Shown here: in pieces, positions 14,551 to 17,773 of the stretch
How the letters are laid out: each line of letters begins with the position of its first letter
Position numbering within the stretch: position 1 is the stretch's first letter
Assembly: GCA_031265445.1 (NCBI GenBank)
Contig: JAISCQ010000055.1
Location: forward strand, 1-35,754
Source: Bacteroidales bacterium
Lineage (GTDB): Bacteria; Bacteroidota; Bacteroidia; Bacteroidales; UBA4181
Reading direction: 5' to 3'
DNA length: 35,754 nucleotides
Made by a program: the position numbers and the translations under genes
The notes under the pieces: generated by a model
Database searches by the model: none
The model's input: only the letters and a program-made list of their open reading frames with translations
What the model was told of the DNA's origin: nothing

Positions 14551-15237
14551 ATGGGACTAATGGTTATAGAAGGTTTGGACGGAGCTGGTAAATCGACGCA
14601 GATCAACCGGTTAAATGAGTATTTGATTGCCCGGGGTTACCGTTGCCGTCAATTGCATTTCCCGCGTACGGAAAGTTCCGTGTACGGCGAACTGATCGCT
14701 CGTTTCCTTCGCGGCGAACTGGGCGATATACACCGGGTAAACCCGTACTTGATCGCTTTGATGTATGCCGGAGACAGGCTCGATTTCAAGCCGACCCTGG
14801 AAAAATGGCTGAATGTCGGCGAAATGGTTCTGCTCGATCGTTATGTCTACTCCAATGTAGCTTACCAATGTGCCAAAATATCGAACAAAGAAGACAGCCG
14901 GGCTTTGCGCGAATGGATTCTGCACTTGGAATTTGAATATCACGGATTGCCTAAACCCGATCTGAATATTTTCCTTGATGTTCCTTTCGGGTTTACCCGA
15001 CAAAAATTGACGGACAACAGGGACGGCGACGAACGTCAATATCTCCATGGCAAAAGGGATATCCACGAAGCCGACCTCGATTTCCAGAAGTCAGTGCGCG
15101 AATCGTACCTTTCCTTATCGGACATCGACGATTTTGTTCAAATCGATTGTAGCGACGGCCATGCTATTTTGCCTGTTGACCAGGTATTTAGTAAGATTTT
15201 AAATGTTTTGAATGAAAAATTAACCAATATCAAATGA
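14551..15237 (+). CDS. tmk: Thymidylate kinase
   Basis: It phosphorylates dTMP to dTDP in the cytoplasm, a required step of dTTP synthesis. The P-loop VIEGLDGAGKST is at residues 5-16. The dTMP-binding and catalytic DRYVYSNVAYQ lies near 95-105, FLDVP near 146-150, and a LID region with TDNRDGDERQYL follows. At 228 residues it is slightly longer than the usual 205-215. Upstream spacing is 45 bases with no clear promoter box, so it may share transcription with the exported pair. Its TGA overlaps the ATG of the next gene (ATGA), which implies translational coupling to an exported repeat protein unrelated to nucleotides. Confidence 0.93.
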   Translation: MGLMVIEGLDGAGKSTQINRLNEYLIARGYRCRQLHFPRTESSVYGELIARFLRGELGDIHRVNPYLIALMYAGDRLDFKPTLEKWLNVGEMVLLDRYVYSNVAYQCAKISNKEDSRALREWILHLEFEYHGLPKPDLNIFLDVPFGFTRQKLTDNRDGDERQYLHGKRDIHEADLDFQKSVRESYLSLSDIDDFVQIDCSDGHAILPVDQVFSKILNVLNEKLTNIK

Positions 15238-16211
15238 AAGTGAAATCTTTTGTCATATTACTATCAGTGTTTGCGTGGCTGACCCCGGTCATGGCACAAT
15301 ACGATTTCGAAGCAATGGAACGGGACCGTATGGCTAAAGCCAGGGTAAAGGTTCAAACACAATGGACTCATGACTTTGTTGACGGAAAACCATCCGCTAA
15401 AGGGTACAAATCTTCGGTCACGAAATTCAACACGAAGGGAAATATAACCGAAGTCACCAATTATAACGAAGACGGCAAGGTCATTTCGTTGATCATTTAT
15501 CAATACGACAGCCGTGATAACAAGGTGAATTTCGAGCGGTACCAAGGCAATCGCGAAAAGCTGCAATACAGCCAGAAGGTCGTGTACGATGCTAAAAGCA
15601 ACAAAACCAAAGAATATGGATATGACGGGGCTACCGTATATAGCAATACTTACCAGTATGATACAAATGGCAAGCTTTCCGAAATCGCTTATACGGTGGA
15701 CAATGTCCTCGTGGAAAAACGAAAATTGAAATATTCGGGGAACAAAACCGAAATAATGATTTACGATCCGAATAATAACCTGACATTCAAGCAGGAAAAC
15801 AGTTATAATGACAAAGGGTTACTGGTAGCGGAAATAAAATCCGGTGGTAAAGGCAACGTAGTGCACACCCTGGATTTGCAATACAACACTTCGGGCGATT
15901 TGACGGAAGAAGTTAAAAAACGCGCAGGAGACAAGCTGGATTACCAGAAACTGTACTATTACGACAAGGAAAACCGTCCCATCAAGGAAGAAACCGTCAA
16001 CCTGAACGACACAAAGTTCGTGTCGCACGAATATCAATACAACAACCTGGGCGATTTGATATTAGAGACTTGGAAAAAGAACGAAAAAACAAACGAATCG
16101 TCATCGAAGAAAATCACGTACGATTCCAAAGGACTCTATACGGAGATGGAATGTTATTTTGCCACTTATAAGTTAAGCTCTTTATATAAATACACGCACG
16201 AATTTTATTGA
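15234..16211 (+). CDS. Exported YD-like repeat protein
   Basis: This 325-residue protein has a signal peptide (MKVKSFVILLSVFAWLTPVMA, then QYDFEA). The mature chain is built of about 10 imperfect repeats of 20-25 residues with the pattern Y(D/N)xxGxLxEexxy, e.g. FNTKGNITEVTNYNEDGK, YQYDTNGKLSEIAYT, YNDKGLLVAEIKSG and YQYNNLGDLILETWKK. These resemble single RHS/YD-repeat strands and Bacteroidota cell-envelope proteins of unknown role. There is no RHS core domain, toxin tip or sorting signal, so it is probably a free or loosely bound periplasmic beta-rich protein. The start codon overlaps the tmk stop, so expression is tied to tmk. The function is unknown. Confidence 0.8.
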   Translation: MKVKSFVILLSVFAWLTPVMAQYDFEAMERDRMAKARVKVQTQWTHDFVDGKPSAKGYKSSVTKFNTKGNITEVTNYNEDGKVISLIIYQYDSRDNKVNFERYQGNREKLQYSQKVVYDAKSNKTKEYGYDGATVYSNTYQYDTNGKLSEIAYTVDNVLVEKRKLKYSGNKTEIMIYDPNNNLTFKQENSYNDKGLLVAEIKSGGKGNVVHTLDLQYNTSGDLTEEVKKRAGDKLDYQKLYYYDKENRPIKEETVNLNDTKFVSHEYQYNNLGDLILETWKKNEKTNESSSKKITYDSKGLYTEMECYFATYKLSSLYKYTHEFY

Positions 16212-16239
16212 ATATCGGTTTTAACGCCTGAAGACGCAC

Positions 16240-16767
16240 GTGCTCGTATCTCACACGTCTGGTCGACATTGGCGGCCGGCCGTACATAGGGTAAAAGGGC
16301 AGGGAAAGTTTTTAGGGTTATCCTTTTTAGACATATTGAAAAGTGTAAAGTTTCTGAAAATCAGCCGTATCGAAAGGCGCCTCTTTGTCGAAGCCGCCTG
16401 CGAAACTTTGCGGGTACGCATCGTTACTACCTTCCGAAATACCCGGCAGTATGCTTCGTGGCTCGGGCAAAGCCAGGTGGAAACCGAACCGGTTGCACTC
16501 GACACATGGCACAGAGCACAGGTTCTACAAATCAAAACAGCATTAACACGATGCCGGCATCTCGTGTGGGCGCGCAAATGTTTGGTAGAATCCGTTGCCG
16601 CCAAGCGGATGCTCAATCGCCGCCAGATACCGGCAACATTGTATATGGGCGTTGCCAAAAACGAAAAGGGAAAACTCATTGCCCACGCATGGATTCGCAG
16701 TGGCGACATTTGGGTGTCGGGCGGACGCAACCGTCAAAAATTTACCGTAGTTGGCGTTTTTTCATGA
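16240..16767 (+). CDS. Lasso peptide B2-type transglutaminase-like protease homologue
   Basis: The C-terminal 70 residues match the transglutaminase-like family of lasso-peptide leader peptidases (McjB C-terminal domain, B2). ARKCLVESVAAKRMLNRRQI carries the catalytic-type Cys114. LYMGVAKNEKGKLIAHAW carries His149, followed by SGDIWVSGG and FTVVGVF. The McjB Asp about 12 residues after the His is replaced here by Gly, although Asp156 lies 7 residues after it. The N-terminal half (ERRLFVEAAC...YASWLG) fits the usual helical leader of B2 proteins. The start is uncertain: GTG 16240 gives 175 residues and TTG 16336 gives 143. No RRE (B1), asparagine-synthetase-like cyclase or precursor peptide is recognisable nearby. 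Its true substrate is unknown. Confidence 0.78.
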   Translation: MLVSHTSGRHWRPAVHRVKGQGKFLGLSFLDILKSVKFLKISRIERRLFVEAACETLRVRIVTTFRNTRQYASWLGQSQVETEPVALDTWHRAQVLQIKTALTRCRHLVWARKCLVESVAAKRMLNRRQIPATLYMGVAKNEKGKLIAHAWIRSGDIWVSGGRNRQKFTVVGVFS

Positions 16768-16788: not shown

Positions 16789-16796
16789 TATTTTTG
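16789..16796 (+). promoter_or_regulatory. Bacteroidota -7 box for the TPR gene
   Basis: TATTTTTG matches TAnnTTTG, 22 bases after the B2-like gene's stop and 29 bases before ATG 16826. It supports that ATG over the one at 16751, which would lie upstream of the promoter. Confidence 0.55.
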
Positions 16797-16825: not shown

Positions 16826-17773
16826 ATGGGATTTTTTTCATCATTATTTACTCCGGTCAAAAGCGAGGAAGACAACCGGCAGAAAGTCGACCTGAAAAAT
16901 TTCGACATCTTGAAATACGATGGCATACGCGCGCAGCGCGCAGGCAAAACGGAATATGCAGTAAAGTGCTTTACCGAAGCCCTGAAAATACAGGCGGATT
17001 TCGAAACAATGAAATACCTCATGTCTGCCTATTACATGCTGAACAAGCACGATGAGGCGCTGGAAGTATTGAATACAATGATGGACACGGGAGAAGAGCC
17101 TGTCAGCACCTTATTGACGCGCGCCAATCTTCTTTTCACGATGGGAACGAACACCGAAGCAGTAGCCGATTGCATACGGGCCATTGAAATAGAACCGGAA
17201 AACCCCTTTGCGTACTTCCAGTTGGCCAAATCGAAACGTGCGCTTGGCGAACTGCCGCAAGCCATCAGTAACTTAGACAGCGCCATCGGTATCAAAGACG
17301 ATTTTGCCGAAGGCTATGTATTGCGCGCCACGATTAATTACGCGCTAAAAAATGGGAACAGCGCATTATCAGATGTGGAAAAAGTGATTGAACTGACGCC
17401 CGAAGATGAAATGGCCTACCTGCTCCGGGGTCGTATTCACGAATTGTTGGGCGATACCGATGCCGCTTTCCTCGACTACCAGGAAGCGTCGGAGCTTAAC
17501 CCGTTCAACGAAGAAGCCTATTTGCTTGCCGGCCAACTGATGATGGCACAGGAAAAATATGGCGAAGCAATCACCCTTTTCGACGAAGCAATCGAACATA
17601 ACGAAAAGTTTGCAAAGGCTTATATTGAAAGGGCGCAGGCCAAACACAAAACAGGCGACCATGAAGGCGCTTTGGCCGATGAGAAAAAAGCTGGAGAACT
17701 AAACCCCGACGAAAAAGAAAAACCAGCTGGAAATCATAATTTCGACGACCTCTATAAGGGAAATATCATTTAG
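16826..17773 (+). CDS. Tetratricopeptide repeat protein
   Basis: This cytoplasmic scaffold protein of 315 residues contains about seven TPR units from residue 30 to 300. The repeat signature (small residue at 8, A at 20, P at 32) is plain, e.g. AFYLGR-type helices AYFQLAKSKRALGELPQAIS, AYLLRGRIHELLGDTDAAF and AYLLAGQLMMAQEKYGEAI. A short MGFFSSLFTP head and an acidic/Lys-rich tail (NPDEKEKPAGNHNFDDLYKGNII) flank the solenoid. There is no signal peptide or membrane span with the chosen start. The partner is unknown. Its promoter is separate from that of the B2-like gene. Confidence 0.88.
   Translation: MGFFSSLFTPVKSEEDNRQKVDLKNFDILKYDGIRAQRAGKTEYAVKCFTEALKIQADFETMKYLMSAYYMLNKHDEALEVLNTMMDTGEEPVSTLLTRANLLFTMGTNTEAVADCIRAIEIEPENPFAYFQLAKSKRALGELPQAISNLDSAIGIKDDFAEGYVLRATINYALKNGNSALSDVEKVIELTPEDEMAYLLRGRIHELLGDTDAAFLDYQEASELNPFNEEAYLLAGQLMMAQEKYGEAITLFDEAIEHNEKFAKAYIERAQAKHKTGDHEGALADEKKAGELNPDEKEKPAGNHNFDDLYKGNII

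Follow-up and report, generated by a model that had tools for sequence, protein, structure and literature searches.

Lasso peptides are usually found via B and C genes that adjoin the gene of a precursor. In the maturation of microcin J25, the leader is acted on by McjB, which is a single fused protein and has a Cys-His-Asp triad (PMC11420955, available part), and in that of paeninodin the RRE and the protease are separate proteins, PadeB1 and PadeB2, and PadeB2 cuts the precursor only with the help of PadeB1 (PMC5067487, available part). That a RiPP leader protease can be encoded away from its precursor has been described for unclustered lanthipeptide leader proteases (PMC8960859, available part). 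A dispersed lasso pathway has not been reported in the accessible parts of the open-licence literature searched, which included PMC10352776, PMC7533575, PMC4289311 and PMC8831229.

Here, we have analysed a stretch of 35,754 nucleotides from a Bacteroidales bacterium, the whole of which is called the window, and in it a gene that a sequence-only reading had described as an orphan lasso-peptide B2 protease homologue. In our view, this gene likely encodes a trans-acting B2 leader protease of a lasso pathway whose genes are not clustered. Like in the PadeB1/PadeB2 system, the same two families of RRE and protease are found in the window's genome; unlike there, the B1 and B2 genes are unlinked, cyclase and precursor are also unlinked in relatives, and the activity is a predicted one. 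The window B2 resembles McjB in being a Cys-His protease of the same superfamily, but it is unfused and carries a Gly at the position of the Asp, 12 residues after the His. From the unclustered lanthipeptide proteases it differs in RiPP class and enzyme, and here the dispersal extends to RRE, cyclase and precursor. New is the genome arrangement, not the enzyme.

The Protease and Its Catalytic Residues

The open reading frame at 16240-16767 on the plus strand contains a lasso B2-type cysteine protease, as had been proposed, and exceeds the curated cut-offs of both family models, with 78.6 bits against 33 for NF033537 (lasso B2) and 74.7 bits against 26 for PF13471 (Transglut_core3). It is the only PF13471 gene found in the window's genome, an assembly of 4.6 Mb in 309 contigs with a completeness of 84.8%. 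The Cys/His transglutaminase-like core has been confirmed as well: counted from TTG 16336, Cys82 lies in an aligned column with Cys in 47 of 47 Bacteroidales B2 proteins, and His117 in a column conserved in 46 of 47. In the AlphaFold2 model (mean pLDDT 91.3), a helix starts at Cys82, and His117 is part of a strand. By its family membership the gene is a genuine, intact lasso-peptide leader protease (B2), whose cleavage activity is predicted.

It seems very improbable to us that the protein belongs to another class of proteases or transglutaminase-like enzymes and is merely similar to B2. The curated B2 model matches well beyond its cut-off, the neighbours in the tree are B2 proteins, some of them beside B1 and HPr-kinase-like genes, and B1 and B2 co-occur across genomes (see below). 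These observations have to be weighed against a fold search in which the model shows only a loose relation to transglutaminase-like cysteine proteases, with matches at the superfamily level (best Z 5.3) that include LapG, vasohibin and MOA proteases, and against the lack of a conserved acidic third catalytic residue in the Bacteroidales B2 alignment. A sequence search has returned no convincing solved relative.

The replacement of the usual Asp by Gly (VSGG) had been noted as an anomaly of this gene. In the McjB-type triad, the Asp is presumably spaced 12 residues after the His; in the window B2, this position is occupied by Gly129, and the protein does not have the Cys-His-Asp arrangement. 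The Gly is thus present as described, but it is not peculiar to the window: counted ungapped (gapped counts differ slightly), residue 12 after the His in 46 Bacteroidales B2 proteins is Gly in 31, Pro in five, Glu in four and Asp in one. Because Gly prevails in this way and several of the proteins carrying it adjoin a cyclase and a precursor (e.g., at L066 and L069), the VSGG motif is normal for Bacteroidales B2 proteins and no oddity.

TABLE 1. Coordinates of features around the window B2 gene and of giant proteins at other loci.
Locus	Position	Strand	Feature	Basis
Window	15234-16211	+	RHS-like repeat protein with exported-looking N-terminus, upstream of B2	PF05593, 26.3 bits (cut-off 22)
Window	16206-16212		Left TATTGAA copy of a 7-bp direct repeat, possible target-site duplication	
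Window	16213-16333		121-bp stretch without counterpart in L012; lies between the upstream stop and the TTG start and holds GTG 16240	Comparison with L012
Window	16334-16340		Right TATTGAA copy of the 7-bp direct repeat, overlaps the TTG start	
Window	16336-16767	+	Lasso-peptide B2 leader protease (Transglut_core3), most likely 143 aa from TTG; predicted catalytic Cys82 and His117	Family scores, conserved Cys/His, gapless alignment to L012, AlphaFold2
Window	16826-17773	+	TPR-repeat protein, downstream of B2	Family searches
L177	4967-9547		Giant protein (example)	
L133	11023-14592		Giant protein (example)	
L135	3523-8388		Giant protein (example)	
L182	9588-13850		Giant protein (example)	
L228	2552-5914		Giant protein (example)	

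Start Codon and Gene Neighbourhood

The nearest relative of the window B2 (84% identity) is encoded on L012, a contig of the MAG Gx485_bin136 from the same genus (C171 of genome G003, reversed), and window and L012 have the gene order tmk, RHS-like repeat protein, B2 and TPR protein in common. In L012, the B2 homology starts at a TTG, the last two bases of which overlap the TGA stop of the RHS-like gene (TTGA). This TTG is also present in the window, at 16336, separated from the upstream stop by 121 additional bp, and the B2 of a second congener, G008, begins at about the same alignment position. The GTG at 16240, which had been taken as the start, sits inside the extra DNA. Since the starts in L012 and G008 agree and this GTG has no counterpart in the closest relative, alignment places the start most likely at TTG 16336, giving a protein of 143 aa, and the start at GTG 16240 has been abandoned. 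The extra stretch interrupts the stop/start overlap seen in L012, by which B2 was probably coupled to the upstream gene. As a dispersed repeat the stretch was rejected, being present in a single copy in the window's genome.

The position of B2 between an exported repeat protein and a TPR protein agrees with the sequence-only reading (Table 1). Ahead of the TPR gene, a site of the form TAnnTTTG, which we take to be the Bacteroidota promoter consensus, has been read by eye at 16789-16796, and this promoter-like site suggests that the TPR gene belongs to a separate transcript. Neither a cyclase nor an RRE nor a precursor lies beside the window B2, and the locus is not a classical lasso gene cluster in which precursor, B and C genes adjoin. 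Among the relatives examined, the neighbourhood is found in L012/G003 only, so that a conserved neighbour is missing, as had been suspected; the RHS-like gene is no conserved partner of B2, because it does not lie next to B2 in G008. There, the B2 gene (L014 9488-9919) sits elsewhere and adjoins an MMPL/acyltransferase/methyltransferase fusion gene on the opposite strand, for which no relation to lasso peptides has been seen.

An isolated gene with a changing neighbourhood could also be a relic, in decay, of a lasso cluster that has been lost, and the missing surrounding cluster, the extra 121 bp ahead of the start and the different context in G008 would fit such a history. We nevertheless regard decay as highly unlikely. 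The reading frame is open, Cys and His are kept, the B1 gene is intact, and 143 of 143 codons align gaplessly with L012. Over this alignment, 34.5 synonymous changes on 101.5 sites compare with 22.5 non-synonymous changes on 327.5 sites (p 1.2e-10), and the resulting dN/dS of 0.159 is at the upper end of the values of five neighbour genes (0.073-0.158). The window B2 is under purifying selection. A second complete cluster with a B2 of its own, which would have pointed to decay together with the unconserved neighbourhood, is absent from the genome, as is any second B2.

A Lasso-Type RRE Elsewhere in the Genome

The description as an orphan without B1 is correct for the locus and for the window, but not for the genome. 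One PqqD/RRE gene above the cut-off has been found in the window's genome, and it is of the lasso type (NF033536, 82.4 bits against a cut-off of 80), its best PDB relative being the lasso RRE TbiB1 (E 9.1e-18). It lies on contig C307, unlinked to B2. The same contig carries L053 (1388-3229), an Asn-synthetase-like gene in whose product the glutaminase Cys2 is replaced by Thr (MTFYTGLF).

How closely the two families go together has been followed in 80 genomes, 48 with B2 and 32 without, the latter consisting of six congeners, three further family members and 23 members of the order. Counted at 60 bits or more, B1 is present in 44 of the 48 genomes with B2 and in none of the 32 without (Fisher p 2.7e-18). 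The four exceptions are G003, which is 57% complete, G170, G250 and G368 (41 bits), and weak PqqD matches of 32 and 37 bits occur in two of the 32 B2-negative genomes. All six congeners without B2 are also without B1, and their cyclase matches are at the level of AsnB or missing. Adjacent B1-B2 pairs are found in G017 (L015 9227-9983) and G090 (L056 324-1108), two genomes of high listed completeness in which no lasso-clade cyclase has been recognised; in G090, the pair stands at the contig start, and NF033535 gives no match at E 1e-6.

This co-occurrence also bears on the earlier suggestion that the protein may process an unrelated peptide or belong to an unrecognised RiPP-like route. With a partner RRE in the genome, the association of B1 with B2 in other genomes, and a lasso-clade cyclase in two congeners that share the orphan B2, one of which (G008) also has a precursor, this is not the best reading.

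Orphan B2 Genes and Scattered Lasso Genes in the Order

Of 393 genomes of the order, 47 gave a match to NF033537, and the neighbourhoods of 47 B2 genes were surveyed, from 46 of the 47 genomes (G163 left out) and from G003. A cyclase-like gene lies within 10 kb of B2 in 23 cases, B1 is near and a cyclase is not in 15, and in one case, on a contig of 3.2 kb, only an HPr-kinase-like gene is near. The remaining eight B2 genes, those of the window, G003, G008, G048, G044, G157, G263 and G064, lack a nearby cyclase, B1, kinase or sulfotransferase gene; a nucleotidyltransferase lies 3 kb from that of G157. Since the contig extends for at least 5.6 kb on each side of seven of the eight, contig ends do not explain the orphan genes. 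In the B2 tree, they stand on several branches and require four label changes, of which the starred branches force only one.

The missing genes are largely found at other places of the same genomes. A lasso-type B1 is present elsewhere in seven of the eight (all but G003), a lasso-clade cyclase likewise in seven (all but the window's genome), and a precursor in five (G008, G044, G157, G263 and G064). The cyclases of G263 and G064 adjoin a precursor; those of G008, G003, G044, G157 and G048 have been placed by models built without them and by a quick tree, in which a branch with an SH-aLRT of 100 divides the lasso side from the rest. In the congeners G008 and G003, the cyclase lies on another contig than the orphan B2 and scores 1062 and 1041 bits, respectively, with alignment A2, which holds both, and 506 and 484 bits with a model without both. 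In G008, B2, B1, cyclase and precursor are distributed over four contigs (C65, C82, C93 and C4), and likewise in G157, where the contigs measure 193, 151, 208 and 377 kb, so that the scatter there is not due to fragmentation of the assembly.

The precursors of the survey share the consensus KKxWxxPxLxxL....TxGG. With Thr as the last but one residue of the leader, an Asp or Glu stands at core position 7-9 in 28 of 29, a count biased upwards, as the frame with an acceptor was chosen where several Thr were possible. The precursor match of G008 (E 7.8e-5) has the predicted core GGTTPTWSEAEGYDFGAES, which begins GGTTPTWSE and carries Glu at position 9. The idea that one B1/B2 pair serves many cyclases, raised by NF033535 matches that number up to 14 in a genome, was dropped, because most of the matches of 150-270 bits examined start with MCG[IL], the glutaminase Cys of AsnB-type proteins.

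Search for Cyclase and Precursor in the Window's Own Genome

In the window's genome, at its completeness of 84.8%, neither a lasso-clade cyclase nor a precursor has been found, which is the main weakness of the dispersed-pathway reading. The best precursor matches are low-scoring (E 0.25-0.75), with a search that is weak for divergent leaders, and the candidates are not precursors: two are parts of reading frames 589 and 1055 aa long, and another overlaps dnaJ. The only Asn-synthetase-like gene of fair score is L053, beside genes that look glycosyltransferase-like by eye. It has been rejected as the missing cyclase, as it reaches 103 bits with the lasso model against 184 bits with the AsnB model and groups with AsnB-type proteins; a score of 440 bits came from a model trained on a pool containing L053, and with models built without it the protein is AsnB-like.

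Cyclase and precursor are thus either within the missing 15% of the genome or lost in the lineage. At this completeness one gene is easily missed, several less so. A loss would leave B1 and B2 as an RRE-guided protease kept for another peptide, and we consider such a re-use unlikely. The intact state of both genes in a genome without recognised cyclase or precursor, and the selection acting on B2 relative to L012, are compatible with it, as is G017 (completeness listed as 100), whose adjacent B1-B2 pair comes with no precursor found and in which the one cyclase-like match examined is AsnB-type (MCGL). On the other hand, both congeners with the same B2 hold lasso-clade cyclases, the six other congeners without B2 have no B1 either, no alternative substrate gene is conserved beside B2, and divergent leaders may have escaped the precursor search. 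We therefore prefer the dispersed pathway, with the strain's own cyclase and precursor presumably in the unassembled part.

A Probable Lasso Pathway in Trans

The dispersed-pathway reading builds on the observed membership of B2 and B1 in their families, the purifying selection on B2, the co-occurrence of B1 and B2, and the unlinked cyclases and precursors in relatives, including those of the same genus. The window B2 probably looks orphaned because the lasso genes of this group lie scattered over the chromosome, and co-occurrence across genomes suggests that the scattered parts belong, and would work, together. By analogy with PadeB1/PadeB2, the unlinked B1/RRE on C307 would bind the leader of a KKxWxxPxLxxL....TxGG precursor and hand it over to B2, where Cys82, with the help of His117, would sever the leader one residue past the penultimate Thr, and an unlinked Asn-synthetase-like cyclase would close the ring onto the Asp or Glu at position 7-9.

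A wider proposal, which we put forward as possible yet rather doubtful, is that a lasso pathway with fully dispersed genes, at up to four loci, operates in several Bacteroidales families, with the precursor coupled to a giant type-IX-secreted beta-propeller/SprB-repeat protein rather than to its enzymes, and that the trans-acting set of B1, B2 and cyclase matures a lasso peptide that has this surface protein as its functional partner or its carrier. If a Bacteroidales pathway is indeed spread over up to four loci, cluster-based mining will miss its products and label its enzymes as orphans. The scattered arrangement would also offer a clean test of whether RRE, protease and cyclase act in trans as a standing set.

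Giant Proteins Beside the Precursors

Among 30 lasso precursors of the order, 18 have a giant protein within 1.5 kb, in 17 cases on the same strand, and four of the 12 precursors without one lie less than 750 bp from the end of the locus. The giant secreted protein often follows the precursor within about 120 bp and combines a beta-propeller-like N-terminus with SprB repeats (examples, among others, in Table 1). In most of those examined, it ends in a type IX secretion tail.
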